From Gracilaria vermiculophylla (Eukaryota > Rhodophyta > Florideophyceae > Gracilariales > Gracilariaceae), in assembly GCA_019155205.2 (NCBI GenBank), contig JAHNZQ020000172.1, positions 2,758,011 through 2,798,788 on the forward strand: a stretch of 40,778 nt of DNA, given 5' to 3'. Under the pieces are notes generated by a model. That model had not been told where the DNA came from and ran no database searches. It was given only the letters and a program-made list of their open reading frames with translations. This document shows positions 1 through 40,778 of the stretch, piece by piece (position 1 is the stretch's first letter; each line of letters opens with the position of its first letter). The position numbers and the translations under genes are program-made.

Positions 1-69
1 TACATCACTTCGATGCCGAAACACTGCATTAGCGTGATACAGCAAAAAGGATGCAAAATAAACTATTAA
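1..69 (+). pseudogene. Tc1-like transposase, C-terminal fragment
   Basis: Frame 1 reads directly from the first base to a TAA at 67-69. The peptide contains SMPKHC followed by VIQQKGCKINY, the typical end of Tc1-family transposases (a SMP.RC core, then VI..KG...Y). The same ending occurs in Tc1-C at 37400-37470. Only 22 residues lie in the window, so catalytic status cannot be judged. Confidence 0.8.
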
Positions 70-226
70 GCGTCGCGCAGTAAAGATTTGTTATTGATGA
101 TCATATGTTTTTGAAACGTTTTTTTGACTTTACTTTTTTCTGAGACCTATTTTTGTAGGCGTACAGTATACATTTGTTCGTTTTGTTGAGATTTCACAGC
201 ATGTCGTATGTTTTTGAAACAGTCTG
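1..226 (+). mobile_element. Tc1-like transposon, 3' end only (Tc1-A)
   Basis: This is the 3' end of a Tc1/mariner-superfamily DNA transposon whose 5' part lies outside the window. It holds the last 22 transposase codons (1-69), a spacer, and the right terminal inverted repeat. The repeat carries two copies of the motif TGTTTTTGAAAC, an inner one near 106-117 and an outer one near 209-220, which is the IR/DR arrangement known in Tc1 elements. The outer end CTG at 226 is followed by TA (227-228), the expected target. The whole stretch is a close direct repeat of 37400-37628, the right end of Tc1-C, so the two belong to one family. Immediately after the TA comes coding sequence of a second Tc1-like element, so Tc1-A appears inserted into Tc1-B. 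Confidence 0.85.
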
Positions 227-3877: not shown

Positions 3878-4887
3878 GCTACTGAAATGCAACACCCTCC
3901 AGGGAGGTTTTTCTTGGCACTTGGCCAATTCAACGGATTCGGGATAGGCCGTACATAAGAAAACTGTTAACGTGGCAGGTGCGATTCACATCCGTTTGGA
4001 TGGTGGACTCCGGAATTGCCACAGCAGTGCGTGTAGTGCGACGTGACACGCGCACTAGACGGCATCCCGACACGCGCGCGGCAGCCGCGCGCGTCCCGCT
4101 GGCTACAGCATGGGCGCCGAATGGCACCTGCTTTGCACGGTTAATTTAGTATTTTCGATATTTATTTATTTAGTAGAACCGCGGGTCCTGAAAGTCCTGT
4201 GACTGAGGCAGTTTCCATAAATTCGGTGAGATTCCCCTGTAATATATCGGGCTGACTTGGTGCGGCTCTGTAACATATTGGGGCACGCACGTTTTGGGCA
4301 AGCCGCGTTGAGCGGGTGGCAGACGGAGTCCAGAAAGGGGTAAACCGGAGGTCCGACGGGGCTAAACTCGTTCGAGGATGAACCTGAAAGAAGGAAAGGA
4401 TAGTCTAGACAATGATTCTCGGCGTCACGGGTGGTTGGCTTTCGTAGTCTACGGCGTACTTCTCCAAGGTCGAGAGCGTTACCCGCGTGTGGGGCAAGTT
4501 CGGACCGAAGATCCCGCTTGGTGAGATTTACTGTGCGTGACCGCCGAAAGGCCGTCGCGCGAAGTACAGCAGCTTTAAGGCCGAAATAGCCAAAATAACT
4601 AAATAAATAAATATCAAAAATACTAAATTAACCGTGCCAAGCAGGTGCCATTCGGCGCCCATGCTGTAGCCAGCGGGACGCGCGCGGTTGCCGCGCGCGT
4701 GTCGGGATGCCGTCTAGTGCGCGTGCCACGTCGCACTACACGCACTGTTGCGGCAATTCCGGAGTCTATCGTGCAAACGGACGTGAATCGCGCCAGCTAC
4801 GTTAAAAGTGTTCATATGTACGGCCAGTACCGCATCCGTTGAATCGGCAAAGTGCCAGATAAAACCAACCTGGAAAGCGTTGCTCTT
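3878..4887. repeat. Large imperfect inverted repeat (fold-back), arms about 295 bp
   Basis: The arm at 3878-4172 is the reverse complement of 4590-4887 at roughly 85 percent identity by eye. The arms enclose about 417 bp of unrelated sequence. The inner ends share an AT-rich block containing three ATTT units, and the middle of each arm is very GC-rich (CGCGCG runs). Each arm contains a 65-codon frame in mirror orientation (3930-4127 minus, 4645-4842 plus). Their peptides begin with the same 14 residues but then differ by many amino-acid changes, so protein constraint is not evident. No clear target-site duplication was seen. It could be a fold-back transposon, or two copies of one repeat in head-to-head orientation. 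Confidence 0.75.
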
Positions 4888-7044
4888 CATATCAGCCACC
4901 TTAGGACAGGGTCCGCACCTCGGCGAGGAAGGGCCAATTCGAAAAGTGGCATTAAGAGCACGCCCGACTGGCCAGCTTCCGGAATTCCGTCACGACGGTC
5001 GACACGCGCTGCTCGCGAATCCTCTCCGAATACTTCGGCAACCGCTTCCAACAAACGCACAATGTCCAAACGCGCTCTAGGCCACCCTGCAATGGGTTTG
5101 ACCGGCTTCCTATAGGTTCCAACCCAGCGGCATAGCGGCACTCCGCCTGAAGCGCCTGAACGGGAAGTAACCGACTTCGGATTTGAAGATGCGACAGCCG
5201 CTCATGCGCATACTCCGACCTCGGACTCGCCCGATACGGGAAGCCCAACCATGGCGTACCGGGTGCTCGGTGGTGTCTCTCGCGGTTGGTCGCCAGTACA
5301 ACCCCTGGCCGACTTACGACGCTGTAATGGCGGCAGATCCAAGAACTCGGCAAAGAACCCTGATACTCAGGCTCACTCCATGGATCCTCCCGATCGCGGT
5401 CCACGACAAGCCCTTGATTGTTGCGTACACCTACAACTCGAGCAAACTTCCCGGAGGGATTCCCAGAGTGGTTACTATGTCCTGAAACTGGAGTTACTGC
5501 ATCAAGAAACCGTCTTATCCCAGCATCCGCCGTCGTGGAGAACCTTTGGAAGACGCCCATTGCACGATGATCCTAGTTGCGCCCTTCCGATAGTTTCCAA
5601 CCCCGTTCAAGACACCGTTCTGGGGCCTTGTGTCCTGCGACATCCTGTTCTACCGCACGCGCGGTGAAGTCTGGTACTGCGTTGTGCTTCATCAACTGGA
5701 AGTCGCCGAGTGGGGTAGCCGGGTCCCAGTACGCCAATAAGCTTTAAGCCGTACGTGGCCTATCATCCTCGCTGAATTTTATTACCTCTCCTGGCAGAGC
5801 CGGTCGCGCTTTTTGCAGAGCTTCATCTGCAAGGAGCGACGTTGGGGAGTCCGAACCGACTTCTCCGTACCGTATTAGAATACGAAGATCGGGCGCATCG
5901 CTCCGCGCTACCGCAGGTGGCGGTATATCCCAATTCCGGATTGGTGGGTCCCAGTCGAGGCATGCTGGGGGTGTTTTGTCGAGCCCCCCCCGGTCCTGAT
6001 GTATATGGGCTCCACCATCGTGGATTATCTCTGTTTTGGGTACTGCTTCGTTGTCTTCACGGAGTGGAGGGTCCGCATTGCAGCTTACGACCTTGCCGAG
6101 GCGTACGACCAATACCATCTTTGGCACGTCCCGACACGGTTGCGAAGATCTATCCGTATCTTGGATATGAAATCCTACTCGGGGGCTAAACCGTTCCGGA
6201 ACAGAAGCTGGAGTCGCTCGACTACATCGACTAAGTCCATTAAGACAAAGTGCCATGCCAGAACTCCCAGCATGACCATCCGCATCGCGGATCAGGTACC
6301 GGGCTCGCGCGTACCACAGCGGACGCTGGCGACTTCGTGTACCTCGATCCATGGGAGTACACCGAGATCAGCCGCGCTGAGGTGGAGACCTATTGCAATA
6401 CACCCCGGAGGATTCCGGCTGACCACCCTTGCGGATAAATCGACGCCGGCGGCTATGACCGCGCCAATGCGGATGATGATCCTATGGTAGATCAGGAGCC
6501 AGCAGCAGTGGTACACGATGTTACTACCGAATCGGGTCAATCCAACAACGGGGTGGACGTGGCGCCCGCCGTGCAGAGTTATACCTCCATGGAGGAAGAC
6601 GCTCTGCGTAATAGGAGCGCTGCCGCTTTAGCAGATGATCCTGAGGACATTTCTCCGGTTGCTCCCTCGCGCACGACGATTCGGGCGACCTCGCCATCCA
6701 CGGTGGACGTTACCGGTTTCTCCGCGTACTCTGCTGACTCGGTGCCTGGAAGCGATGTTATCACGCACTTTCTCCGAGAGATCAGGCTGCGCCCTAGCGA
6801 GATTTTGGGGGATGTGGCCGAGATGCGGAGACCCTTGCAAACCACCCTGAGGACTTTGACTAATAGAGTGCCAGCAAAAATTTGCGCGACTTGCGTATTC
6901 CACTATAAAATCTGGAGTCTTTCCATACTTTCTCTTGATCTTTGTTCTCGCGCGATCCGCGCGTCGAATGATAGTCACCGGCAAACATCGGAAAAAGTGC
7001 CATTATCGATGAGGAAACCGTGTTCACGGCGACTTGCGGTGTGA
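4645..7044. other. GC-rich block with long open frames on both strands, unassigned
   Basis: Plus frame 1 is open from 4645 to 7044 apart from about ten stops, for example at 4840, 5113, 5665, 6187, 6436 and 7042. The minus strand also has long frames at 4952-5560 and 5744-6352, both in the same reverse frame. The 6439-7044 plus segment encodes an acidic, Ser/Thr/Ala-rich, low-complexity protein. Another acidic, proline-rich stretch lies near 5137-5250. This composition resembles the N-terminal part of retrotransposon Gag proteins, but I see no zinc knuckle or Gag core. High GC alone lowers stop frequency, so much of the openness may be trivial. The block ends where minus-strand Gypsy-1 begins. 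Confidence 0.4.
6439..7044 (+). pseudogene. Acidic low-complexity protein relic, possibly Gag-like
   Basis: This is an open frame of about 200 codons with an ATG at 6484. It continues an upstream open segment in the same frame (6250-6438) across a single stop. The peptide is rich in Asp, Glu, Ser, Thr and Ala for its first 90 residues, then has the segment FLREIRLRPSEILGDVAEM. After about residue 125 it becomes Cys/Ser/Arg-rich and looks non-coding. No domain is recognised. A disordered N-terminal Gag region is the best guess because the surroundings are gypsy elements, but this is inference only. Minus-strand frames over the same bases are shorter. Confidence 0.3.
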
Positions 7045-23000: not shown

Positions 23001-23269
23001 TTCATCTACAGGTTTTTTTTGGGTAGGTGAGATATCTGAGGCGATAGAAACTTTATACTTCTCGTGCTGCATGAAGCAAGTCGGATTCATTCGGTCTTTT
23101 GCTCATGCTTTGCCGAAACCCAATTGGATTCTATTCGTTCTAGATTCTCAAAAGGGTGCATGAATGCCAACTGGGCTTCTGTCGAGGTCGGCTTTACGTC
23201 TGGGCGTTACTAGTTTCTGTTTTTATGGCTTATTTTGAGGCTTTGCACCCCATACTCAGGCGTTGTGAT

Positions 23270-24400
23270 CTATTAGACATTCCCTTTCTGTTTTCGCGTC
23301 AATACTCGTCGGTCGGCTCCTTCTCTAAATCGTGGCGTTCTCCATCCGGTTGGCGTCCGAAGCAATCCCTGTTGCTTCTGCTGGCAGACCCGTACGAGAG
23401 GTGCATACAGTCGTATAGTCACGATGGTGGCCCAGAGGTGGGGTGATAGGCAGAACAATTACAGAACGCTACCCGTTGACAGCTACCTAACCACTGAGGA
23501 CACACGGTTGTTCGGTAATGTTTGTGGTTCCCATATGGTCTGCATGATTGTTGTTCGGTTCGTAGTTTGCTTAAATACTGACATAGTCATCCCGAACGGC
23601 ATAGCAAGCTCCACGTGGTTCAAACAATTGAGTTCAAGCTGTCGATTCTTCCTTCCTGGAGTATATTGCATGACAATAGTCCAGTTGAACAATGGAATAG
23701 CAGCCTTGAGCCTGCTCGCGTGTATTTAGTAAATCACTTGAAGTGCGTGCTTTAAACCAGCTGGGTCTTTCTTTTTAGGCAACGAATTGATTCATCACCA
23801 GGATCCTTATGACTTTCTTTATCGTACATGGTATTATATGCTTGTATTTGAATGAATTTTTGAACTCAGTGGGTGTTTCCAATTCCTTTCGCGTATCAAA
23901 CTAGTGTGTTATTTGACAGTTGGCAATGATTCGCCAAATGGCTACAAACGCGCGCCCTGGTGCCTTCTTCGACAATTGTGGCATACAAAGACTTCAGCTG
24001 AAAGGTGATTCAGGCGCTTCTACATTAAAACTAAGTGAAAAACAGTTTATTAGGGAAGTCTGATTTGGTCTCTTCAGCCCTTTTGTGGCAGCTTAATACT
24101 TCTGCGTAGGTCCCTTTAATGCCCTAATCTTCAGAAAATGTCTGCAACAGATGGTTCACCACTTTTTAATAGGTACAAATAATTTCTGTACCATCTTCGT
24201 CAATCACCATCTTGCTTTCCTGCATCCTACCGGGAAGCATTGTTCTACCTGCATCCTTGATGTATTACTGAAACGACAAAAAAGTCATTCTCGAAAGGCT
24301 ATTTTGCTCCCACGCAACCTCAAACTGCCCAAAGGAATCGAGTATTGTGATCGGTTTACCACCAACGAAGTTTGTATCTACCACTCGTAATATAATACAG
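23270..24400 (-). pseudogene. Gypsy RT/RNase H/integrase relic of a second lineage (Gypsy-5)
   Basis: Read on the minus strand from 24400: EDGTEIICTY and a thumb-like stretch (24240-24100), then a possible YNTMYDKES (RNase H Glu region, near 23850). The frame ending at 23483 contains LFNWTIVMQYTPGRKNRQ, matching the end of RNase H in gypsy elements (fdf.i.Y.PGk.N). Next, 23458-23273 contains RVCQQKQQGLLRTP, which resembles the C..CQ..K....GLL.PLP joint between the integrase zinc finger and core in chromovirus-type gypsy elements. This GLL-type joint differs from the PLEF type of Gypsy-1 to -4, hence a separate lineage. Stop density is high and the boundaries are uncertain. Confidence 0.5.
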
Positions 24401-27400
24401 TGGTACTATTTAAAATTTTCATGTGTGGTTCCCTCGGCATAGAATAGGTCGGAAGTGGTCAGTCTTTGTGTCCGATACTCTTTTTCACTCGTTCACTCGT
24501 GAATAGTTCATGCACTGTTTGCAGGACCTTCAGGTTCTCATAATCGAAATATTAATGTGGTGGTGCATGTGGACTGCTTTTTCCGTTACGGCGACGATTT
24601 CCCTTGCTGTGGGATTTCTCCCATTCCCTCTATTTGCGGTCCTTCTCTTGGTCAGTTTAGAGGTCTGTTTCGCTATCTGAACTATACGTCTCCGAGCCAG
24701 ATCATACGGCTCGTTTCTTCTGCCGATTGGTTTTTCTCCTTGTTTAGGCTTCCGTTGGTTTTTGCACACCGAGAACAATAAACCGCCACCGTTAGGATCA
24801 CTCTCATCAGCTCCGTATGCAACATCACAGCTGGAAGTGAAAAATGAAAAATGCCGCGCTCTTTTTGTCCCGAGGGTCTGCCCAATTTCCAACTGGGGCT
24901 TCTAGCTGCCTACAAACCCAGATTACGGGATGTGAGAACAGCCACCTGGTAAAATGCCTCATCCGCTAATTGCTTGAAGGTTTCCCCACTGGTACTGAAG
25001 GCGTAGGTGATGGCTGCTTCTGGAAGGAAGTGGCTGACAAGTGCTCTTGGAGAGCTTATCGTACTTTTTGGTCTATATACACCCAGACGACCACTTACTA
25101 GACTTGATGACAGGAGTAGGGAAGCTGACCGGTGAGTCCGTATGGGAGCGCTGGTACAGTACGGCAGTGATCTCATTAGTATTCAAGCAGAAAACTGCCA
25201 TTTGGATACTTTGTACTCCCTCTATGGTCGCCAATGAGTCTGTTAGATATGCATTACGGATCGATACAGCTTTCTCATTCTCCATTGGGTGATTTAGGGT
25301 CTATCTGCTCTTTGGATGTCTGTTGAGGGGTGGACCCACTGGTTTCATTCCAGATCCACTCCTGCAACATGTCCAACATGCGATGTTCTGCTGGAGAGGC
25401 GCACTTTCGTCCCTATTAAGGAGCCACCTTTCTTGGTAGGCACTCGTGCAGTTGAAATGAGTAGGTGATTCCAGTAAATCGTTCTACGGCCGTTTCGGAA
25501 ACCAAACCGTATCCGTTTTTCTACTTTTAGTCGGGTATGCTTTTCTCTACGAATCGTTTTGTACATCCACATCCATGTAAATGAACCGAAACGAATGCGG
25601 TACAGTGCGCAGCATATGCACAACCCGTCGGTAGGCTCAAAAGAGCGAGGCTTCTCTAATGATCGCAGAGGTAGCTGAATCTTAAAGATGAAATAGAAGT
25701 GGTACGAAGTACGGTAGAGGCAGCACCAGAACATCAGTTGGTACACGATGACCAGTGAGCTAACGGTGCGCAATTGATAGTGTTGATTGGCTTCCCGAAG
25801 GGAGGTATGATTGGATGGAGAGCTATCTACCCTGTCGGGTGACTTTGAAAATTGCAGTGGTTACAAATTTAGCAAGAAGCTGCTTCGATCTATTAAATAG
25901 CGATAAAAGACCCCACGCACATCTCCAAGTATGGTGCAGAGCTCTGACCTCTCTAGAGTCCATGCATGCGGCTACAGTATCGCAATGGAGACATCTGGCT
26001 AGCTGTGTACTATATATAACCGGATTAGTAAAACTCTGCGCTTGCTACTTTCACTACCATTGCTGTCGAAATGTGACTTCACAACGGTCACAGCGGATGT
26101 CAAAGCAATAGAAAAATTGCTCATTGTGAAACAAATTTGCGTTTTTCCTGAAACGTTTTTGTTCGATTTATCCGTCTGAAGTCAGAGAGTTTAGCAATTT
26201 CTTTTGAAATATGAACATCTTTGGTACAAAAGAATGGAACCGAGTCCTCAACGGAATCAAAAAAATAAAAGCACTCTCGTAAAATGTGCATGTCGGAATA
26301 GATCCTAGGGAGGTGATTTATGTTTTAACGTAGATTTTGAACTTTCCGCCATTTTGGAGGCTGCTTTATTTCAACTTACTTTTATCACGGAATTTCTGTC
26401 CGCACCCGTCTATGGATACATGCACGGTTAGGTCCTGGATTGATCCGCGATACACGTTTGTCGCCAGTGTTGTAGTGTGGATGGTGTGCACAAAGCAAAA
26501 AAGTGGAAGAACAAAAGGCCAGAATCATTCTCTCCTATATCTCTTTCTCTATTTCAGTTTACAGTACAGTTCTTTACTCTCCATTATAGTATTTCAGGGG
26601 GCCCCATCATCGCTGCTACCCTCAGTAAAAATCAACCAAGGTTCCAGCTGTCAGCCTGCCGCTTTCGGCATTATTTATTTCTGTACGAAAGATATTCCGT
26701 TACACACGATCTTTTATAGGTTTTGATGGCCAAGAGCGCCCACACGTAATATTATTTCCACCAGTGTTACCTTGCTTTCTCTTTTATCGTTATATGTAGT
26801 GCACTTACCGATGTCTGCTTCTGCGGTACCCAATCTCTCATTATTGCGGTAAAGCCATCAGTTTCGTTGATCACGCAAACCTATTGGCCCGCGGTCTTTT
26901 ATTTCCCTCATTGTTCTAGAGGAATATAAATGTGTCTCAGAACATGAACTTAGGTTGATCCGCTTCTAGATCCTCTCCTGCCAGTTTCGACACGAATAGA
27001 CGTAGCCCTGTCATTCCGGCTTTGCCGTTATGTTGCCTTGAGTGGTTTCTACGCACTGCGTTTCATCTAGTTCTGTAAGATATCGAACTTCTTCGTGATG
27101 TTTTCCTACCAGCATTCTACTGTCTATATGTGGTCTCCTGACCTATACTTGGATCATTTGAAAGCGTTAGTTTTCTCACTGAGGGTTATTTTTGTCCCAA
27201 GAAGATCTTACTGTTCTCCCATTCTAGCCATTGTTATGCGGAGGATTCCATCAGTCCTGATGACCAATCTGAGTCAAAGCACCTTCTACCCTGGTGGGGA
27301 TCACCTAAAAGACCGGATGCCTTCACGGATACCGATCCAATCTGGATCCTGTCTAGCTAATAGGATTATCTGATCTGTGTGCCATAGAGCGGAAGCCCGA

Positions 27401-28560: not shown

Positions 28561-28975
28561 ATGTTCGCCGACGTACGGAACCCAGAGCTCAAAATGCTGA
28601 TTCCCCGTAATCTGAAAGATAGGCCGCAGTTTTCATACTTGGAGCTTTTGAATTATGCACGTGCCAAAAGAAGCTGCACTTTGTGCCCACCATCCTCCAC
28701 AAAAGTCGAAGTCTTTCAACGCGTTGGTGATGGAGCATGGTTCTCTATTTCTTTATTTCATGGCTAAAAAGAACGCCGCTGGCGGGGACTTAAAACGCTT
28801 TGGTGTTTTTCGTTGTCTATACATACGGGTGGAAAATTTCTGGTTCCCAGATAGAATCCTGGTGATGGCGAAGCGTAACTACAAGGATTATGCTGAACAT
28901 TGGCTAAGCGTCCATTTAAGTGTACAACATCTCAAAGTGTTACAGACAGGTGATTTATCGTTAAAGCAGTCTTAA
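28561..28975 (+). pseudogene. Gypsy gag 3' part (Gypsy-4)
   Basis: Two overlapping frames carry the relic: 28561-28767 (RNLKDRPQFSYLELLNYARA) and 28655-28975 (AALCAHHPPQKSKS, later DRILVMAKRNYKDYAEHWL). The switch between them near 28660-28680 is a frameshift. The end matches the Gypsy-2 gag relic at 13112-13260 in sequence and in the encoded RILVMAKRN. The assignment to Gag rests on this match and on position before the protease; no CCHC knuckle is seen. Confidence 0.5.
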
Positions 28976-28977
28976 AC

Positions 28978-29265
28978 TTGCAATTGCGGTCTCGTATATG
29001 TCCAAAAAGCCGCCCTTGGATATGGCTGACGCAAACGGCAACCTACCGAAAAACGGAGTGGACGATTGATTTCGTCGTGCGATCGGGGTCTTCGAGCGCG
29101 AAACACGACCTCAACGTATTTCAGTCACAGGCCTCTCCCGTCATGCTTGGACGTGACTATTACGATCGATTTGTCGACGCCATTGGGCACTATCAGTGGC
29201 GTGTTGAACTATTCAAAAGCTCTCCTGCTTCCATCGTGCACCACCCTTTAAACTGGCTTCGATAG
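28978..29265 (+). pseudogene. Gypsy aspartic protease, second half (Gypsy-4)
   Basis: In one frame the sequence around 29020-29040 reads DMADANGN, matching DIADANGT of the Gypsy-2 protease. In another frame it reads VFQSQASPVMLGRDYYDRFV and IGHYQWRVEL, matching the closing VC.SLA.P.IL.CDYCDR segment. The N-terminal part with the active-site DTG is missing: the gag end lies directly before the ADANG segment. An internal deletion of about 50 codons near 28975 is therefore likely. It is followed by linker sequence up to the copia insertion at 29429. Confidence 0.65.
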
Positions 29266-29428
29266 AATGGGTGGAGCGTTCTGCTGCGCAGGTTCTAGAA
29301 CGTAGTTCCAATAAGTCCACAGTGCTTCTTGTTACCTATTCATTCCTCATTCCGGAAGGAACGCATTTCATCGTAGACATAAACACCTGTCAACATGGTG
29401 TACATGTGGGTCAATACCAACGATCGTT

Positions 29429-29771
29429 TGTCGCAGAAAGTGGCTCACCATACTGCATGAAGACGATGAAACAGTACTTTCATTTGATTACCTGATTTCA
29501 CATAAATATGTGTGGCGTAATTGGAATCACCGACATAACATTGTTGTTCAGTCATGTAGCTGATGCGGCTCAAATTGCATGTGCTCAAAGTGCAGTTGGA
29601 TGTCAAGGACATCCTGGTAAACCATCTGTTTTAGGCTCACATTTTCAAATCCATACACTAGATCAATATACCGGTCCTGACACTGAATAGAAGTACTTAT
29701 AAACTGCTTGGTCAAGCTGGAGTCCTAGAACTCTCAGTCAGTCTTTTCGATTCAATTAAAAATTCGTGAAA
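29429..29771 (+). repeat. Copia 5' LTR
   Basis: This 343-bp sequence is repeated at 34727-35070 with about 20 differences by eye (about 94 percent identity). It starts TGTCGCAGAAAG and ends TTCGTGAAA, without the usual CA. A TATA-like ACTTATAAAC lies at about 29695-29704. Directly after the LTR, GATTATGGGCTTG (29772-29784) partly resembles the complement of an initiator tRNA-Met anticodon arm, as in the half-tRNA priming known for Drosophila copia. A 60-codon frame (29508-29690) occurs in both LTRs simply because they are copies. Confidence 0.93.
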
Positions 29772-29918
29772 GATTATGGGCTTGTAGCTGCCGCTTGCGT
29801 TACGAATTCATCACATTCGACCATTATCCTACGCGTTGCTCACCTGCGTGGCTCACACTTTCTTTTGGTGGTTAACTTGCGCTAATGAAGAGCTTCTTGA
29901 AACCTTCTGGCAATTTCC

Positions 29919-30650
29919 ATGTCAGGGTCAGAGAAAACGCGCATGGATCCCCTGAAAAAGGGTTCGGACTTTAATATACGGACGATTCGAGTAGAAGCAG
30001 CATGGAATGCAAAAAGTCTCAGTGAAGTTCTAGAGAATGAAGTTTGTCTTTCCGATGAGGAAGGCAATAAGACTCAATTCTCGGCTTCTCAGAAGATGGC
30101 TTCTGGAATCATTGTTGCAGATCTTTTGAACGAGGCGCTTCGAGTGGTTCCGAACTGTGTGCAGAACCCTTGCATTATGTTAAGGAAGCTCGGAGAGCGC
30201 TCTGACTGTTAGACTGCAGCCTCTAGAATAGCCAATATGACTGAACTCATATCACTGCGCTACAGTAGCACTAAACAGAATATGGGAAAACATTTTGACA
30301 GGATGAAGGCAATTCTTGAGAAGCTAGAGGCATTGGATACAAGGATTCCAAAGGAACTGGCCATCCCAATACTCATTGCCTCAATTGGTGGAAGCGAACC
30401 TCTCCCTATAACCGCAGCCTTGAAAACATTAACTGATGAAGCCGCTACTTGGGACAGAGTATCCGTCCGACTAATAGAAGAGCAGCAATCTGTGAAGAAG
30501 AAGCAAAATAGGCTTGAACGAGTTCACACCGCAAAATCGCATTATTATATATGCAATAACGCTGGTCATAGTACGGACAGATGCTGGATCAATCCCAAGC
30601 ATCCCGAAAACAGACTCCGGTCCTCGCATGACAAGGCAAGTGAGTAGAAT
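29919..30650 (+). pseudogene. Copia Gag with damaged zinc knuckle
   Basis: The frame starts at ATG 29919 (MSGSEKTRMDPLKKG), has an in-frame TAG at 30210 and continues TAASRIANMTELISLRYSS to a TAG at 30645. The middle part (NMGKHFDRMKAILEKLEALD, then IPILIASI) matches the copia-type Gag core (UBN2 family). The zinc knuckle near 30540-30585 reads YYICNNAGHSTDRCW, so the pattern C-x2-C-x4-H-x4-C has lost its first Cys to Tyr. Protease follows in the same frame 2 codons after the second stop, showing that the ancestor was one gag-pol frame. Confidence 0.85.
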
Positions 30651-31690
30651 ATGGCCGAGACTCGAAGCATCATTGAGGGTTTCCTTAAGGACGAGAACTA
30701 CAATAAAAATGAGGGCAAAATTCGAGCTGCAATAGTGCTTGTAATATCAGCCAAGGTGAGAGATGAAGAAAGAATGATGGTAGACTCGGGAACCATCTCA
30801 CACATGACACCCTTCCCAAACACTCTACATGACGTTGAGTGTTAGGATTTACATTGTTTTATGCTTTTATTTTATGAATCATGAGTAATAGACGTGATAT
30901 TATATGTTTTACGTAGCCTAGATGCATTCCTCGTGAATTCCACTTTGATTCGATGTTTTTTCTGCCCTAGACAGGCTTTACAACCACGTTTGATGATACA
31001 TGTCATCATGCTATGTTTGAAGTCATAAGCCTTACAGGAACCTATTGGCACTCTTGTTGTCAATGTAAGCATCCCAACTGTGTCCACGACGGAATGTTCT
31101 AGAAGCATCTTGCGAAGGACAACTGTCCCATGAAGGACATTCGTTTCGACTTTGCATAACTGGCAATAAGATGTTTCATAGCCAGTGCATCTAAAGGGGT
31201 ACCGTAGAAATCATTTACTGTGGCCTCGTTTTCGAAGGTTTGATTCTCTACGTAGACCCTGGTCAACCCGCCGACTTCTTCTCGGCTGGGCACCATCGTT
31301 CCGGTTCTCAACCATTGACCCATTGTTCTAACATTGACGAATGCCTCGCTCCAATATCCTTGGGTGATGGCTTTGTGGTTCATGCCATACAATGCGGAAC
31401 CAAAAGTGTGAATGGAGTGCATGTGATCAGCGGACAGAAGGTTTCCTAAGCAACACGCTAAATGCCGAAAGCCTAGCGATGAATCTACTTTCTGTTCCAG
31501 CCTTGACCGGGAAGGAATTATGTGTTCTCTTCACAAGAGACAAAGTAGTCATATTCGATGAAACTGACAATCTGAAACCGGTCGCCGAAGCACCAAAAGG
31601 CACGGATGGGCTCTATTACACTAGAAGTAGAGTAAACGACTCTCTTAATGGCGAGAACAAAAGAATCGGCAATGCTAACAGAATTTCTTG
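30651..31690 (+). pseudogene. Copia protease, split by a solo LTR
   Basis: The active site MMVDSGTISHMT (Asp codon 30783) is the copia-type DSG..SHM motif, with spacing as in functional enzymes. The frame is cut at 30839 by a 494-bp insert and resumes at 31334 with DECLAPISLGDG and VHVISGQKVS, the strand that follows in copia proteases. At about 31445 a 1-bp loss (TTCCTAAG where TTCCCTAAG is expected) shifts to the frame that carries SNTLNAESLAMNLLSVPALT. A compensating shift occurs before about 31690. The downstream part to 31690 is the protease-integrase linker. Confidence 0.85.
30840..31333. mobile_element. Solo LTR, 494 bp, inside copia protease
   Basis: It begins TGTTAGGA and ends TTCTAACA, inverted ends typical of an LTR (TG...CA). 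It is flanked by TTGAG (30835-30839) and TTGAC (31334-31338), a 5-bp duplication with one mismatch. Removing 499 bp rejoins the protease as HDVDECLAP and shifts from frame 0 to frame 1, exactly as observed. Minus-strand frames at 30872-31108 and 31099-31422 lie within it and show no convincing domain. Orientation is unknown, and no related sequence was seen elsewhere in the window. Confidence 0.8.
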
Positions 31691-32991
31691 AAGAAAGCAG
31701 TGGAGAGAGCAGCAGTGTGGGAGACCTCTCGTCAGTATTAAACAACATTTCAGAGCTTGCAGAGTATGAACCATCGTACGGTCCGCAGGTCCTTGGTCAT
31801 GAAGACCACATCAACGAAGTGAGCAATATGTCCGAGAAGGATGATTTTGAGGAAGCTTTTGACCTCACCGACGACAAAGAAGGGGAAAGCACACCCCAAC
31901 CCAATGGTATAAAGGGTAGGATGAAGAGTGCAGCGGAGATATGGCACAATCGCCTAGGCCAATTTAGCTCTTAACATGGAATCAAAGAGCTCATGGCCGA
32001 AGGTACTTTACCAGCTCCTTCCACAACCATCAGCAAGTGTGATCCATATGAGAAGGCGAAGTTCAGACGCTCTTATACTGGAAGCCTCACCACGACTAAG
32101 GAGCCTGGAGCAATACATGCTGATGTGGTAGGACGAATCAAACCGAGTGCAATTGATGGTTCCAAGTACTTCTGCACCGTCACTGATGGGTACAGCAGGT
32201 ATGTATTTGCAAGTTCCCTTATCACAAGAAAAGAGCCATCCAAGGCAATTAGCCTCTTCATGACCTTGATGGAAAGGCAAACTCTGTATAAAATCACGTC
32301 CTTGCACAGCGATGGCGGGAAGGAGTTCAGGGGCATGCGCTCAGAAATGGAAGCACTCGGAATTGAAGTATTCATCACCACACAGTATACGCCATCTTTC
32401 AATCGATTAATTAAGCGAACGCAGGGTGTACTCATAACAGCCATCCGTACATGCCTTGGAAAATCACATCTTCCTGGGCGGTACTGGGGCTACGCTCTGC
32501 AACATGTTGTGGATAAAAAGAATATTGTAAGGCAATCGTTAACGAAAACAAGTTCACATGTAGCTCTTAAGGGAGCTGCCCTATTCCATGCAAAACATAT
32601 TCGGCCTTTCGGCTGTCTGATTACCGTGGAGTCCTCGAAAGAGGAAAGGAAGCAGAAGGGGAAGATCGCGCTCACAACGCAGAATGGATTGAACTTCGGG
32701 CATATCACCAAATGCATTTACAGAATACAAACCAAAAGTGGTATTGGGCCTTCGAAGCATGTTAAGTTCCATGAAGAATCGTTCCCGAGCGTAACGATTC
32801 TCAGAAATCATGATGCAGAAAAATACGTGCAGGAACATGAAGATAATGTCTCATCTGTAATGGAAGAATCATTCGTAGACGAAGAAGAATTGGAAAAAAG
32901 AAACCATGAAGAGGAAATTGAAGCTAATGAAGTATTCTTTGATGCGACTGAAGAACTGGGTAACAACGACACAGAGAATTGGAGCTCCTGA
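31691..32991 (+). pseudogene. Copia integrase, catalytic Glu replaced by Lys
   Basis: The zinc-binding start reads AEIWHNRLGQFSS (31939-31971), where the His of the usual LGH is Gln. It continues past a TAA at 31972 to KCDPYEKAKFRR, where the second Cys of C..C is Tyr. The core has HADVVGR (first Asp 32122) and LHSDGGKEF (second Asp 32311). It then has RLIKRTQG, where Lys (32413) stands at the position of the third catalytic residue (usual NG.IER). The 3' part to a TGA at 32989 is acidic and low in complexity, as is common between copia integrase and RT. Three key positions are lost, so it is inactive. Its 332-codon frame 31993-32991 is the longest in the window. Confidence 0.9.
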
Positions 32992-34008
32992 ACGCACTAC
33001 GCCGAACAACCGTCAACGTTTGATGGTACTCATTATCATGATAGTGGCACAACGATAGCTGAATCCGATCCTTCAATACAGTCAAGACACGGGTATGATC
33101 TGCATTCTCTTTCGAAAGCAACCCTATAGATACCACAATCCATATCTACGGTTGATGAACCCACGTTAACCGACGCAATGCGCAGCAAGGAATGGAAGCA
33201 CTGGGAGAATACGATCTAAGAAGAGTTCAAAATTTTCCCTGAAGCAGAAACCTACGAACGGATCACAGAAGTGACATGCAGACCACTCCCTACATCAATC
33301 ATTTTGTGATTGAAGCGAGACGAACACAGGAACCCAGAAAGGCCCAAGGCAAGACTTGTGGCTCGTGGAAATCTACAACAGCTTAAGAGCATTGAGGCCA
33401 AACACTGCTACGTCCCCGTCATAGGTTTCGAGATATTTTGGGTTTTATCATGCCGAGCTTCAATTTTTGTATGGGAGAGACAGCAAGTAGACATTAAAGG
33501 TGCTTTTCTGTGTGCCGCACTTCTCGAGGAGTTTAATGTTGACATTTGCATCACAAAGCGTTTAGGCAATGCTGAAGCCGGTGGTGGCCTTGCAATACCT
33601 AAAAAGTCTCTTTATTGTCTGCGAGAAGCTCCGAAACTGTGGTACCGTACCTTGAAACGCTTTCTTACAAATCTTGGATTCTCTTCAGTATCCGTCTCAA
33701 ATTGTCTGTTTGTGCGATGTGAGAGCAATGGGATGGTTGTTCTGTTGGCGTACATCGACGAAATTATTTTGCTCGGAAATGCTGAACTTGTTCAACAGGC
33801 CGAAGAGGAAATGAAGAAATCCTTTTCGGAAAAGGAACTTGGACATGAGAAAAATTTTCTCCGGGTTAGCATACAGGAAACAGACACGGAAATGGTTTAG
33901 TCTCAAGCAGCGCTGATTGAGATAATTCTTGTAGAAGCAAACATAAAACACTGGAAGCCCGTCAGAACACCTCTGCCAATTTCTCACTCACTTTAAGATT
34001 TGGCTCGT
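32992..34008 (+). pseudogene. Copia reverse transcriptase, YIDE instead of YVDD
   Basis: The same frame as the integrase reads DEPTLTDAMRSKEWKHWENT (fingers, near 33150-33210), then PKARLVARGNLQQ and QQVDIKGAFLCAAL, where DIKGAFL carries the first catalytic Asp. Next come KSLYCLREAPKLWYRTL and LLAYIDEIILLG (33745-33780). The catalytic YVDD is YIDE: the second Asp of the pair is Glu. In-frame stops lie at 33127, 33217, 33307, 33898 and 33994. The order and spacing are those of Ty1/copia RT (RVT_2 type). Confidence 0.9.
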
Positions 34009-34719
34009 GATAGACACGAAGAGGACACCAGTGAAGTGGAGAATGTCCCGTACAGGGAAATATTCGGAAAGCTACTTTTTTTCTCCACGCGAACAAGGCC
34101 AGACATCTCAACTGCTGTTTTGATGTTTGGAAAGTTTCACTCAAAGTACTTGCAAGTGCACTGGAAAGCTATGAAGCATCTTCTTCGGTACTTAAAGGGC
34201 TCGATAGACTATGGATTGTCTATTCCAAAGGGCAGTTCTACAGCCATTCGTGCATAGTCTGATGCCGATTGGGTAAGACAAACAGATGGAAGACGATCAA
34301 GAACAAGAGCACTCATTTGTATCGGTGGAACGCCTGTTATTTGGATATCGAAACGTCAACAATCCATTGCGTTGTCCACTTGCGAAGCCGAATTTAACGC
34401 TTTATCTGAAAGCGTAAGGAATTTGAAGTGGATATTACAGCTCTATAAAGAACTTGGTTTGCATACAAAAAATTCTGTTAAGATCTTTCAGGACAATTTC
34501 CGGAGCATTAAAAAGACCAATGAAGTGCAGAGTATTCGAAATGTGAAACACATTGGCATTTTTTACAACTTTGTCAGGGAAGCTGTTGAGAATGGTCAAG
34601 TTGCGGTTGAATGAACACTCTCTGAACTCAATTACGCGGATTCTTTGACGAAGATCTTGCCAGCACCAACCATGCAGAATCACATCCAAGCACTTCGAAT
34701 CCTACAATCATTTTTGTGA
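34009..34719 (+). pseudogene. Copia RNase H and pol C-terminus
   Basis: The frame continues with NVPYREIFGKLLFFSTRTRP and HWKAMKHLLRYLKGS, the RT-RNase H connection of copia elements. Then come SDADW (first Asp, near 34260), STCEAEFNALSE (Glu, near 34377-34410) and SIRNVKHI where TSHRTKHI-like sequence is usual. The catalytic Asp and Glu are kept; stops lie at 34255 and 34612. After the 34612 TGA the frame still reads LNYADSLTKILP, the typical YADVLTK ending, to a TGA at 34717-34719, the original end of pol. The polypurine tract and 3' LTR follow 7 bp later. Confidence 0.9.
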
Positions 34720-34726
34720 GGGGGCC

Positions 34727-35070
34727 TGTCGGAGAAAGTGGCTCACCATACTGCGTGAAGACGATGAAACAGTACTTTCATTTGATTACCTGATTTCACA
34801 TAAATATGTGTGGCGTAATTGGAATCACCGACATAACATTTTTGTTCAGTTCTGTAGCTGATGCGGCTCAAATTGCATGTGCTCAAAGTGCAGTTGGATG
34901 TCAAAGACATCCTGGTGAACCATCTGTTTTAGGCTCACATTGTCAAATCCATACACTAGATCAATATACCGGTCCTGACACTGAATAGAAGTACTTATAA
35001 ACTGCTTGAATACGCTGGAGTCTTACAACTCTCAGTCAGTCTTGTCGATACACATAAAAAATTCGTGAAA
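34727..35070 (+). repeat. Copia 3' LTR
   Basis: This 344-bp copy of 29429-29771 is preceded by a purine-rich GAGGGGG (34718-34724) directly after the pol stop, a plausible polypurine tract for plus-strand priming. It is followed by the target duplicate TCGTT. The differences from the 5' LTR include several adjacent substitutions near the 3' end. These show that both have mutated since insertion, so the insertion is not recent. Confidence 0.93.
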
Positions 35071-36350
35071 TCGTTGTGTGAGAAGAACCCATTAACCGTT
35101 GCTAATGGAATGGTATAGGTGATGCTAGATACCCGGCTTCGGAACTTAGCTGGTAAACTAGAAATCATCCCCTGGATTCTGATGAAGAACCACGTCACTG
35201 GCTTCAATACGTAACATCTTCTACCCATTCTCCAAAACAAGGAGACTAAGTCCGGGATTGTCGGGCTTTATAGAAATGAAGGTACCCAAATGACGAATGA
35301 CGACCTGTCCTAGGGAAATAAAACGGTACCTCAAGCCCACGAGTCAGAAATTAACCCATCACGAGACATGGATTAATATGAGAGAGAAACAACCGCGAGC
35401 CGACTATCTTCAATTTCATGGACCCCTAGAGGACGCCCGAGGAACAAGATACCAGACATGTCCCAGATATGTATCGCAAACCCCTCTGCAACATGCTTGG
35501 GAAATCTAACTCGATGTGGGATACCACCCTTGGGGAGATCAAGGCAGCAGAACACCGTATTGGTCTGCACCCAAACGCTAGACTAGTGGAGGAGTATCCT
35601 TATAATTATAAATTGAAGCATAAGCTCTGGGACGAAAAATAGTTTCAAGCGGATGGTATGCTCCGTGCGGGGGTTCTTAACCCCACTCAGTCTCCATGGA
35701 CATTTTCAGTTGTACTATCTCTTAAACAGGGCGGATCCTGGAGATTTTTCGTCTACCGTCAGAGTAAAAATGCCGTCCAGATATGCGGTGCGCACCCCTT
35801 TCATTGCACCGACGCCTGCTTTGACTGCCTTGACAGCGTCATTTTATTCACGGCGTGAGAGTCAAAAAGACGCCATTGCCAAGTTTTTGATCTGGTAGAA
35901 GACCACGAGAAGACCGTCTTTGTCTGACATTCTGCTTCATGCGTATACGGTTTGAGCTCACGAATGCGCCTACTACTTTTCAGCATGCTTTCCACTTTTT
36001 GTTGAGCCGCTTCAAATGGCGAACGTGTCTCATATACCTGGATGACATTATTGTTTTCTCGGATAGTGTTGAAGGCCAACCCACCAATGTGAAGGAGGTC
36101 ATGACCGACTTACAGGATGCTGGTATCACATTCAAGCCGATTAAGTGCCCATTATTTCCCACTACTGTCAAATAACTGTGGCATCTGATCCGTTCTGGAC
36201 GATTTTTCGATCGAAAAAGGGCATGGATAATTCATGTCAGGGGCAAATGAATTCCGGAAATAGACAAAGATGTGCACCTTGTTGGGGCTTATAACCTTCT
36301 ATCGGCGGTTCATCCCAAGGTTTTTGAACATAGTTGCACCCCTGAACGTA
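35071..36350 (+). pseudogene. Gypsy RT with intact YLDD box, 5' of Tc1-C (Gypsy-4)
   Basis: The linker PLTVANGMV (near 35090) is followed, after stops, by fingers with GAHPF- and LRAGVLNPTQSPWTFSVVL-like sequence (35640-35730). The palm in frame 35939-36175 reads RFELTNAPTTFQHAFHFLL, SRFKWRTCLIYLDDIIVFSD (YLDD at 36035-36046) and LQDAGITFKPIKC. It then continues as the thumb and start of the connection up to CTPER at 36348. YLDD is one of the standard variants of the catalytic box, so this part alone is intact. The frame is cut at 36350 by Tc1-C and resumes at 37629. Confidence 0.88.
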
Positions 36351-37628
36351 CAGTGCGTTTCAAAAATATATTTCCCGTCAAAAGTGCACCAAAATTGTAC
36401 TGTAGACTAGATTTTGTACGTAGTCTATATAGAATCGTTTCAAAAAGATATATACACCGTCTTCTTTCTATTAAAAATGGCTCGATGCCCGCCACTTTCC
36501 AAACAAGAACAGCTTCAAACAGTAAATTTAAACGCCGAGAAGCATTCCTAAAGAGCTATTGCTAAAACATTAAAGCGTTCTAGGGTCATAATTGCTACTT
36601 TTCTCGAAAACCCGACTCTTTATAGATTAAAACGATCTCCGGGACGCCCGAAGAAGCTCAGCCCAGCAGATAAAAGAAGAATTAAAAGGGTGTTGGGAAA
36701 CGGAAAAGTATCGTGCAAAAAAATTGGAAAATATCCTATTCTAAACGTTTTTAAATCTACTATATAGAGGTAGATAACCAGTACAAATTTATTTAAATAT
36801 ATTAAATTAAAAAACCCTTCTTTCTCCAAGACCATCACAAGTAGAAGAGAGTTGACTGGTGTGTTGGAAAAGCCTACTGGAAAAACCAATGGGAAAATGT
36901 TATTTTTACAAATTAAAAAATGTTCAATTTGGACGGAACAGATTGCTACCAATTTTATTGGCACGATTTTCGTTAGGAACGTCATGAGTTTTATACCAGG
37001 AATGCAGACAGAGGCTCTGTAATGGTTTGTGCAGGCATTTCTGAAAAAGGTCTATCGGAATTTGCCTATATTGAAACAAACATGAATTCGGAAAACATCA
37101 GAAAGTTCTATACAATTATTTGCTACCGTATGGTTTATGTTTTCATGAAGAAAATTTCATTTTTGAACAGGATAATGCTCCTGTACACACTTCATCTGTA
37201 ATCAAAAACTGGCTACAGGAGTCTGAAGTATCTATTTTAGAGTGGCCTGCGCGCTCACCAGATTTGAACCCAATTGAAAACGTTTAATGACTGCTGGGAA
37301 GGATGGTATATGTACATGAAAGGCAATTTCAGACAGTTTTTGAATTCAAAAACTGTATTAAAAATTGCTGGAAATCTATACCAGTTTCAACCGTAAAAAA
37401 GTACATCAATTCGATGCCCAAACGTTGTGTTAGCGTTATACAGAAAAAAGGATGCAAAATAAACTATTGAGTGTAACGCAGTAAAGATTTGTTATTGATG
37501 ATCATATGTTTTTGAATCGGTTTTTTGACTTTTGTCTTTTTTCTGAAACCTATTTCTGTACGCTTACAGTATACTTTTGGTAGTTTTTTGAGATTCCACA
37601 GCATGTCGTATGTTTTTGAAACATTCTG
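36351..37628 (+). mobile_element. Complete Tc1-like transposon inserted in Gypsy-4 (Tc1-C)
   Basis: The 1,278-bp element is flanked by TA on both sides (36349-36350 and 37629-37630). Its ends are inverted: CAGTGCGTTTCAAAAATATA at the left against CAGAATGTTTCAAAAACATA read inward from the right. Each end holds a second, inner copy of GTTTCAAAAA (left 36436-36446, right 37505-37517 as complement), the IR/DR structure. It carries one transposase relic. Its last 230 bp are a direct repeat of 1-226. Removing it with one TA restores the gypsy frame as PERTAVKGK. This is the only Tc1-like element in the window with both ends visible. Confidence 0.92.
36477..37470 (+). pseudogene. Tc1-like transposase, DD34E type, degenerate (Tc1-C)
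   Basis: The start ATG at 36477 (MARCPPLSKQEQLQ) gives a frame of about 331 codons to TGA 37468-37470, the usual size for Tc1. The N-terminus has a helix-turn-helix (RAIAKTLKRSRVIIATFL) and a GRPKKLSPADK hinge typical of Tc1, with an in-frame TAA at 36549. Several frameshifts and stops follow. FTN.K.FNLDG (36905-36930) has Asn where the first catalytic Asp is expected. FEQDNAPVH gives the second Asp at 37171, and PDLNPIEN gives Glu at 37276, 35 codons later. The C-terminus KKYINSMPKRCVSVIQKKG is well kept. It is inactive. Confidence 0.88.
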
Positions 37629-38220
37629 TACTGCGGTGAAAGGAAAACCGAACAAACTGGAGCCCTTCACATTTGCGCAAACGGATGCTTTTAGTTCCCT
37701 ACTATATGTGGGCATCACATTACCAACTCTGTTGTTGTCCCATACCGAATCTTACATACTCCGCGGACACAAACGCAAGCCTCTGCCAAGTTGATTGCGT
37801 CTTCTTTCAATCCACCACGGAGGGTGTTCGACTCCAATTTTGTTTTCGGTTGCGCTCACTTAATTAGCCTGATCGAAATTATTTCGTCTCGAGAAATGAG
37901 TACCTTGACGTCATGGGGGCACTTTTCAGGCAATGCGTTTACCTTAAAGTGGTCTCTTCATCATTTACGTGGACCATTTATCACTGAGATGATTGATAGT
38001 AATCTCCAAATTTCCGCGTTGCCTCGTTCAAAGGAGGCTTCGCTTTGTGGAACATAAATTCCAGGTTATTCACCAGAACGGTGCCCGGAACACCCGTGCC
38101 AACGTCCTGTCGCGCTTGACCTCAGATGAAACAACGCTCCCAAGGGAGGAAGATAACGTCCCATGCGGCACGCCTGATTCAACCAACTCGGGAATATTCT
38201 ACCCGCCAGAGCTGGAATAG
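37629..38220 (+). pseudogene. Gypsy RT end and RNase H, 3' of Tc1-C (Gypsy-4)
   Basis: This segment resumes the gypsy frame with KGKPNKLEPFTFAQTDAF and a LPTLLLSHTESYILRG stretch, the connection region (Q.dAF..L...P.L.LP). In other frames, RSLN.PDRNYFVSRNEYLDV (37850-37905) corresponds to the RNase H ERNY..SEKE segment with its Glu lost. The end HKFQVIHQNGARNTRANVLS (38043-38105) matches VVYKKG.QN.HADALSR of Gypsy-2; the catalytic Asp in HADAL is Asn (RANVL). The stop after the PELE residues is at 38218-38220. Confidence 0.8.
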
Positions 38221-39240
38221 ACCAATGACTAGCAAATTAAGGATGAGATTGGACACGGACTTACTTACCCGCAATGGTGGTCGGTTGCCACACAGCTGTG
38301 CGATTCTATTCGTGGTGCGCGAAAAACAGATTGAAGATCCAGAAGAAGGCCACAAAGCTCTCGCTATTCCAGGCAAGAGCGCCGCTTGAATTCGTCGCCA
38401 TCGATATAGGGCCGTCACTTCTGCACACCCCAAGGAGATAGAAGTTCTTGCTCGTGGTGACGGATTGATTCTTGAAACTAGTTCAAACTTTCTCTTCCTT
38501 AAAATCTACCTATTTTACCATGGGCAGTGCATTCATTACGCGTTAAAGCTTCGTGTTTGGCCCTTCAAAGCAGAAAATTTCCGATAACGGAAAACCAGTT
38601 ACGCCCAAGTTCTTCCAAGATGTATATCGCATCTTGTATGTTGAGAATCCGAAGACGACAACCGTCCATTCTCAATGTAGTGCACAATTCGACCGATTCA
38701 ACGGGACTATAATCGCCTTATGTATTTTTTACGTTCCTCACAAACCCAAAACGTAGGACATGTACATAAACTCTTTCATATTTGCGTGCATTACGCAACT
38801 GCACTAAAAATGTAAGGTGTCGAAATTCCAGCTTGCGTTATTTCAAACTCTAGCTATAGTGGCTTTTGAAGTACAAGAAAAGCTTGGCAATTTCCATTCA
38901 GTGAAGGGTTGTCCCCAAACGTAGATGAAAGAGCTTCCACATTGGGGTTTCTCGACATATCAGTGCCAAATGCAAGCAAAAGCATCCTACAAGCATGAAT
39001 TCGATGCCAGCCTGTGGTCTGAATGCGCGCAGTTTATGGCGGACAGTGATCTCTTTTTCAAACGCAAAGAATACTGCATCCACGAATTGAAGAAGGATGA
39101 TGATGTTTTATCTGCGTTGGACGAAATATTAAAGGTCACCTCAGTTGCCACCAATACCGTTAGGTTTTCCATAAATGACAACCACGAGCGTCTATAATGT
39201 GATCGATCTACACTGGCCCCTGCTCCTTCATCTGAGATTA
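38221..39240 (+). pseudogene. Gypsy integrase (Gypsy-4)
   Basis: The zinc-finger part (38221-38390) is badly scrambled. The core begins near 38388 with EFVAIDIG (first Asp), continues in the frame 38553-38756 with SDNGKPVTPKFFQDVYRILY (second Asp), and then has QFDRFNGT, where Asp replaces the usual Glu of VERFNRT. The C-terminal frame 38925-39197 reads SYKHEFDASLWSE, VTSVATNTVRFSIND and NHERL. It corresponds to the SFDARLR and VVIT.GDKKERLS segment of Gypsy-1, showing a common family. No chromodomain could be shown convincingly after 39240. Confidence 0.85.
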
Positions 39241-40778
39241 TCCTTCGCCGCAATCGGTAAGCCCCAACATTTCTGATTCGTCAGCATTTCCCAATACACC
39301 AATGGAAAGACGGCCTGCTGTCTTATGGCAGACCTTGCGAGGCCTCTTAGACTTCCGGTACGTGTGGGGTGGGCAACAGACCTGGTTGGAGACTCTTGGC
39401 CTACCCGGCCAAGCGGTAGTTTTTTTCGCCGTTGCCGCTGACGCACTTCGAGCTTGTCAGATAATTGCATCGGCACCACCAAGTGGACTCCCTCATCCCA
39501 AGGAGCTACCGAAATTGATTTAAGACTCCCTGAAAGATTTCCAGCTCGGTCCGAATAACGGAACAGAAGACTAGAATACAAGACTGCCGCTGCATGGATC
39601 CACGGCGCAAGCCGCATACCCAAAGCACCTTGCTGGCTGCTAGTACTTAAACCAAACAAAGAGTTAGAGGACGGCCATAAGCAATCAGAGAGTCGTAGGA
39701 CGGCTACTCGGTCGCCACTGCCCTTTAAGAAGTACGAAAGTGCTCTGGGGTTGCTGTTTCGCGACAGCGACGGACCCAGATCTGAATGGAATCCGATGAC
39801 AGTGTAGTTCCGGTTGCTTGCTTTGCCATTCGAATCAGTCGGTAGTTGGTTGGATTGCTTGCACTTGAGATGTGTTATGCGACAAATCGTTGGAGAAATA
39901 CGCGGTGCAGATTGGTCGGATAAAGATAAGTATAGGCTGATTGTTGTGCACGGCGGCTTACTGCCGTGAGTACCGGGAGATTCGGTCGCAATATCTAGTG
40001 TCAGATGCGCACGTATGCATATCCATCGCCAGAGAGCCACTTATAGCGCTATAACGACCCGGATTGCAGGGGTAAGATATGAATCACACATCCTCCGGGA
40101 GGTCTTTTTGCTCCTACTTACGTGTATCCCAGAATTCCAGTCTGCGCCTGTACATGACTTAAAGCACGGCTACTGCCATTGAAAATCCCAGCTAGACGTG
40201 TGTTGGACAACCAGTGCTAGTGTCTCTCTGACCAGCGACCTCATATGAGGTCAATTTTAATTACTTTATAATTAGGTGAAAACACTAAAACTTTTCCCAT
40301 AATTTTTTTTGTTCTGATATCCTTATCATATTGTCGATGCCAGCAGCGCTGCACTGTGTCAACAACAACAAAGGGTGAATTGTGACTGTTACATAAATCA
40401 GAGCCGTCTACAACATTCGTAAACTATAGCATCGTCCACAGATCCTTGCAGAACTGTTGGAACAACTGTCAACAGCCGCGCTCGCCTGGTTACCAGTGAC
40501 ATGGAATTTAAAAACTGTTATGGATCTTTGGGGAAGTCAACAACGGTCATAAGAGTAGTTCAAAATCTTGATGTTCGCAGAATCAACAATCGAAATCTGA
40601 CATTCTTAACGGTAACCTTTGGTTTATCCAATAGTGAGAAAACAGTCACTGCGTCGGTGTTCTCGGAATGCTAGATAAGGGTGCTAGATTGCAAGTTTGT
40701 TAGGGAATCACTCAAAAAAACTACGAAAACGCTAGATTCTGCTAGTTCGCGGTGGTTGGCAAGCAAAAAAAAATATTT
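39241..40778. other. No identifiable gene; probable Gypsy-4 tail then unknown
   Basis: A 270-codon minus-strand frame at 39228-40040 has no recognisable motif and lies opposite the expected integrase tail, so it is treated as a shadow. A weak chromodomain-like reading on the plus strand near 39890-40000 is not strong enough to call. From about 40240 the sequence becomes AT-rich with A and T runs. No LTR, tandem repeat or RNA gene was seen. Confidence 0.35.

Follow-up and report, generated by a model that had tools for sequence, protein, structure and literature searches.

A nest of four transposable elements and its insertion order in a contig of Gracilaria vermiculophylla

We analysed a stretch of 40,778 nucleotides from the red alga Gracilaria vermiculophylla (contig JAHNZQ020000172.1; C3:2758011-2798788 in our numbering of the 44.8-Mb genome of 27 contigs), hereafter the window, and found in it a nest of four transposable elements. 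A solo long terminal repeat (LTR) lies inside a Ty1/copia retrotransposon, which lies inside a Ty3/gypsy retrotransposon, and a Tc1/mariner element sits in the same gypsy copy. An earlier note, made from the letters of the window, had proposed this nest, and alignments, target-site duplications (TSDs) and uninterrupted copies of the insertion sites confirm it. Our element boundaries were set from genome-wide repeat alignments together with TSDs; they agree to within one base with the junctions previously given (29429, 30840, 35070, 36350 and 37628), and the duplications named there (TCGTT, TTGAG/TTGAC and TA) are present at the three insertions. The range assigned to the nest, 28978..39240, holds for the insertions but not for the host gypsy, which spans ~27840 to ~39412 when aligned to two relatives. 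We are nearly certain that the locus is an ordinary nest, built stepwise by transposons in a nuclear contig. Its features are as follows.

26544..26761, + strand: remnant, possibly from the 5' LTR or leader of the host gypsy (weak, 62% match to a relative on contig C8)
27840..29428, + strand: left part of the host gypsy (by eye, a gag region and a protease-like stretch; 58-64% DNA alignment to the relatives C8:156600-167600 and C1:51600-59000)
29424..29428, + strand: target duplication TCGTT, left (copia insertion)
29429..35070, + strand: Ty1/copia element (LTR pair, TSD, and gag_2, rve and RVT_2 domains)
29429..29771, + strand: copia 5' LTR, 343 bp, TGTCG...GTGAAA
29772..29781, + strand: primer binding site of the copia element (differs at one base from the complement of positions 31-40 of tRNA-Met)
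30237..30647, + strand: copia gag open stretch (Retrotran_gag_2, E=1e-4, 22.3 bits, under the cut-off of 27)
30835..30839, + strand: target duplication TTGAG, left (solo LTR insertion)
30840..31333, + strand: 494-bp solo LTR belonging to a chromodomain Ty3/gypsy family (shared family ends; inner domains elsewhere)
31334..31338, + strand: target duplication TTGAC, right, with one change
31993..32991, + strand: copia integrase open stretch (PF00665 rve, E=6.8e-9)
33310..33900, + strand: copia reverse transcriptase open stretch (PF07727 RVT_2, E=4.1e-25)
34727..35070, + strand: copia 3' LTR, 344 bp
35071..35075, + strand: target duplication TCGTT, right (copia insertion)
35076..36350, + strand: middle part of the host gypsy (reverse transcriptase; PF00078 and alignment to relatives)
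36349-36350 and 37629-37630: left and right TA duplicates of the Tc1 insertion
36351..37628, + strand: Tc1/mariner element, 1278 bp (PF13358 DDE_3, family ends, terminal inverted repeats)
37629..39412, + strand: right part of the host gypsy (RNase H and integrase region, by eye and position; 56-63% DNA alignment to relatives; includes the right TA)

The TSDs of 5, 5 and 2 bp are as known for the respective superfamilies. The earlier note had suggested looking for copies that lack each insert, and in the genome of the window such copies match the inferred joins and carry a single target. The solo-LTR site was uninterrupted in all four copia copies that cover it (L013, L017, L020 and L021), with the flanks 30839 and 31334 contiguous around a single TTGAG (ATGAG in one). 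Since the host gypsy has no close copy by DNA identity, we fetched three divergent relatives (L059, L060 and L061) and used L005 as a fourth. The copia site was uninterrupted in 3/3 of the divergent relatives: the alignment runs across the join without a gap and shows one copy of the 5-bp target, which is TCGTT in two and ATTTG-like in the third. In all three, the left alignment ends 14 bases short of the site, with the right one resuming after 9, which corresponds to exactly one 5-bp target fewer. The Tc1 site was uninterrupted in 2/3 relatives (L059 and L005), gap-free at the join and with small gaps further out; L061 was left out of this count, as its gypsy match stops before the site.

These empty sites (4/4, 3/3 and 2/3) support the order that had been claimed, namely gypsy, then copia, then the solo LTR, with Tc1 after gypsy; copia and Tc1 are not orderable relative to each other from this locus. 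We found no direct sign against this order, and the ranks of divergence are consistent with it: matches to the host gypsy elsewhere in the genome have an identity of 65-82% over no more than 459 bases, versus 84-86% over ~1.4 kb for the four other copies that span the copia inner part (L013, L017, L020 and L021).

Several observations nonetheless weigh against the nest or its order. The two duplicates at the solo LTR, TTGAG and TTGAC, differ by one base, and L060 could not be aligned to the left of the Tc1 site. The assembly also contains several plastid types, so that some contigs may be chimeric or mixed; four different rbcL genes are present, and a 5.2-Mb contig that bears these transposon families contains one of them. 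This could suggest that the nest is an artefact of assembly in which unrelated repeats were joined. However, a chimera would not produce TSDs, whereas each of the three junction pairs has a TSD typical of its superfamily (one with a single base changed), and independent copies are continuous from flank to flank. We therefore regard an artefact as extremely improbable. Lastly, the terminal branch of the solo LTR (0.052, in a tree of 30 copies) is longer than those of the copia LTRs (0.027 and 0.028), the reverse of what a naive clock would give, although a terminal branch is an upper bound on insertion age.

The two copia LTRs differ at 17 of 343 sites (Kimura two-parameter distance 0.051) and are sisters in the LTR tree. 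As the solo LTR is necessarily younger than its copia host, either its branch holds change from before the insertion or gene conversion has kept the two copia LTRs similar. Tentatively, the solo LTR seems to have roughly double the age given by the copia LTR clock, and the copia LTR pairs, which also have the unusual TG...AA ends described below, may be kept alike in this way. Within the stepwise nest it is thus possible, but on balance doubtful, that the copia insertion is older than the similarity of its LTRs implies. Besides the branch lengths above, the inner parts of the window's copia copy have long branches (0.098 and 0.078) in five-copy trees, and a host that looks younger than its insert has been reported for 1042/4126 nested pairs in plants, according to the accessible part of that study (PMC7251063). 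On the other side, the terminal branches, as upper bounds, perhaps include pre-insertion change, and the five-copy trees do not contain the nearest relatives of the LTRs. A further estimate of copia age from stop codons (19 in frame, versus 5.2 expected from the LTR clock) was dropped, because, of the 10 stops that relatives cover, 8 cluster within a single stretch of 300 bp, and relatives have 7 of these as well.

The unit at 30840-31333 begins with TGTTAG and ends with CTAACA. Its boundaries are those of a family: among the matches scored (40 of 72 candidates), 39/39 others start at most 7 bases from 30840 and end at most 5 from 31333. We fetched 29 copies. Exact 5-bp duplicates flank 12 of them, which are for that reason considered solo, and two further copies have duplicates with one mismatch. 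We interpret the six copies followed by TTGGT and the one followed by TTAGT as 5' LTRs with a primer site downstream, and the seven preceded by AGTGA as 3' LTRs with a polypurine tract upstream; one copy (L034) fits none of these classes. C7:24765-25260 and C7:31513-32012 are the LTRs of one full element (C7:24765-32012), with ACGAG on both outer sides. In other copies, the unit is preceded by gypsy integrase and chromodomain stretches: SH3_Tf2-1 (7.4e-16) and Chromo (4.9e-16) were matched upstream of a 3' LTR in L051, and SH3_Tf2-1 (2.8e-13) in L052, while a piece from L042 gave no domain match. These domains upstream of the family's 3' LTR are the reason why we place it among chromodomain gypsy elements, an assignment that the earlier note does not make. 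The unit in the window is accordingly a single LTR between TSDs, one base changed, of a family whose LTRs flank gypsy genes elsewhere. It could instead be a non-autonomous element with LTR-like ends, or a captured fragment, rather than a product of recombination, and a lone 494-bp unit with a TSD would look identical under either origin. We consider this very unlikely, given that the unit occurs at both ends of the longer C7 element and downstream of gypsy genes, and that solo copies are frequent (12/29), as LTR recombination would lead one to expect.

The copia element measures 5642 bp with the solo LTR and one target copy, and 5143 bp without them. Its LTRs are 94.8% identical and lie between 5-bp TSDs, and the Pfam domains place integrase before reverse transcriptase, as is characteristic of Ty1/copia. 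A genome search with the LTR gave 20 matches, two of which are the window's own. With regard to the earlier statement that host frames are intact once the inserts are removed, it stands for copia insofar as the gag, integrase and reverse transcriptase open stretches are in one phase after the 499 inserted bp are discounted. In that frame, however, each of five copia copies has 7-8 stops in the 449 bp (149 codons) past the solo-LTR site; since all five have them, the family is not one clean frame there. For gypsy the statement holds only locally, at the gap-free joins, in a relic that is itself decayed. Least-disrupted readings were computed with a frameshift cost of 4 and compared with ten shuffles. 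The copia reading runs for 1423 codons, with 19 stops and no frameshift (shuffles: 40-72 stops, one to four frameshifts), or 11 stops and 2 frameshifts when frameshifts are made cheaper. Within ~300 bp of copia (31342-31641), 7/8 of the stops in the gag/integrase phase are common to at least one of the four other copies, and in this stretch the family may have another frame.

The copia LTRs do not end in TG...CA, which is usual though not strictly defining. Among five copies with exact TSDs (the window, L021/L025, L020/L024, L017/L018 and L019), the LTR ends in AA in three, GA in one and AT in one, and in CA in none. The duplicate of L021/L025 can be read as up to two bases longer, and the end is still not CA. 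A sixth copy (L011) has a TSD with one mismatch, and no TSD was found at the copia ends of the pair L013/L012. The inner edge of the 5' LTR is marked by GGTTATGGGC, found directly after six copia 5' LTRs (equal in two and close in four), which is the complement of positions 31-40 of the tRNA-Met gene at three loci on C8, C9 and C11 (L069-L071). Together, the TSDs and the adjoining primer site suggest that this family has non-canonical TG...AA LTR ends. Non-TGCA LTRs are known (TG-GA, TA-CA, TG-TA, TG-TT and AA-CA), and TG...AA is not named among them, in the accessible part of the source (PMC5659011). Because such exceptions exist, membership in Ty1/copia rests on the other features.

The host is a decayed Ty3/gypsy copy. 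RVT_1 (PF00078) was matched at 35891-36172 (E=1.7e-9); among six pieces tested, reverse transcriptase alone reached the Pfam cut-off, and three pieces of the right part gave no Pfam match. Protease, RNase H and integrase were placed by eye and position, and the relatives are collinear. Near 28771 the host has lost ~0.7 kb that is present in both relatives aligned (C8 and C1). Besides the copy itself, weaker genome matches were found for the left (2), middle (22) and right (8) parts. The least-disrupted reading of the host covers 1110 codons and contains 26 stops and one frameshift; the number of stops in shuffles was 33-48, and that of frameshifts one to three. The match to 26544-26761 in the C8 relative starts ~125 bp past the second copy of a 71-bp direct repeat, and from this alignment the segment may be the 5' LTR of the host. 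A 3' LTR was not found up to 4.7 kb past the window, in a searched sequence that had 10 bases doubled at its join. The host does not have the two LTRs of an intact Ty3/gypsy element and, for this reason, is filed only as a truncated relic. Further upstream, 23011-24312 shows a 58% match to the DNA preceding the first copy of the 71-bp repeat in the C8 relative, and by this similarity may belong to an older element beside both gypsy copies.

The Tc1/mariner element lies between TA duplicates, and its terminal inverted repeats are imperfect, matching at 13 of the first 16 bases. A DDE/D transposase is predicted from DDE_3 (E=5.1e-9, profile positions 80-125 of 146). Among the matches scored (40 of 652 candidates), 26/51 others start and end at most 8 bases from the element plus TA, and the rest are shorter or extend past one end. 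The copy is broken: its least-disrupted reading, 329 codons long, contains 6 stops and one frameshift. Related sequences were also observed at window positions 1-226 (the end of a second copy of the family, 88% identical), at 942-1257 (a more distant Tc1-like stretch, 67%) and in the gypsy relative L061 (C1:51600-55600), where a Tc1-like stretch, 66% identical, directly follows the reverse transcriptase match on the opposite strand.

The history that we propose begins with insertion of the Ty3/gypsy retrotransposon, which then decayed. A Ty1/copia element later integrated between its protease-like and reverse transcriptase stretches through a 5-bp staggered cut at TCGTT, and a chromodomain gypsy then integrated into the copia gag-pol region at a 5-bp TTGAG. 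Recombination between the two LTRs of this last arrival would have removed its interior and one LTR, leaving the solo LTR. Separately, the Tc1/mariner element moved, presumably by cut and paste, into a TA of the gypsy, past its reverse transcriptase. The data above show the boundaries, TSDs and empty sites, and which came first in each pair of insert and host; for the recombination and the cut-and-paste transfer, we draw on established knowledge of these families.

Chromodomain Ty3/gypsy elements are known as chromoviruses, and the solo-LTR family resembles them in its SH3_Tf2-1 and Chromo domains upstream of a 3' LTR in L051, although only an LTR remains in the window. The Tc1/mariner copy has the TA target, inverted repeats and DDE_3 domain of its superfamily but, unlike an intact element, is broken. 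The copia element shares the order of gag, integrase and reverse transcriptase, the 5-bp TSD and a primer site complementary to part of tRNA-Met with Ty1/copia, and departs from the norm in its TG...AA LTR ends. A GalEa-like clade of Ty1/copia is known from red algae, as stated in the accessible part of PMC3587641; our element is placed at the copia level and not to a clade. Nested LTR retrotransposons have been described in plants, with 1491 nested pairs in 12 genomes in the accessible part of PMC6911290. The locus is like those nests in the stepwise insertion of LTR elements into older ones, but here the assembly is a compact algal one and the nest includes a DNA transposon and a solo LTR. 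Neither this locus nor its families appeared in the literature that we found on nesting and non-canonical LTRs, in searches not aimed at the species.

Elsewhere in the window, an inverted repeat (3883-4174 and 4598-4889; 292 bp, 89% complementary, 423 bp apart) is perhaps another transposon. The right end of the window is ~22 kb short of the end of the 2.82-Mb contig, in whose last 300 bases no obvious telomere repeat was seen by eye. The four rbcL genes, all different and of plastid type, are L062 (C17:3154212), L074 (C20), L075 (C2) and L076 (C19). They are 94.5% (C17/C20) and 94.8% (C2/C19) identical within groups and 81-82% between groups, over 347-349 residues. The gene on C17, the 5.2-Mb contig with nuclear transposons, is followed by a cbbX-like gene (named by eye), and a tRNA-Met ~47 kb from it matches the same pattern letters as on C2, C19 and C20. 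The alternatives for this context are a large plastid insertion, a chimera or a mixed culture. The best solved relatives of the C17 RuBisCO large chain are 8bdb (1065 bits) and 1bwv (970 bits), which come from the red algae Griffithsia and Galdieria; from this, the genome is probably that of a red alga.

Nested transposons are common in genomes and this kind of structure is well known, so that the nest alone alters no general view. Nonetheless, the genome is rich in old transposon copies, and a single locus of this little-studied alga yields an order of insertion that other copies allow one to test. The locus also supplies one nested pair for testing LTR clocks.

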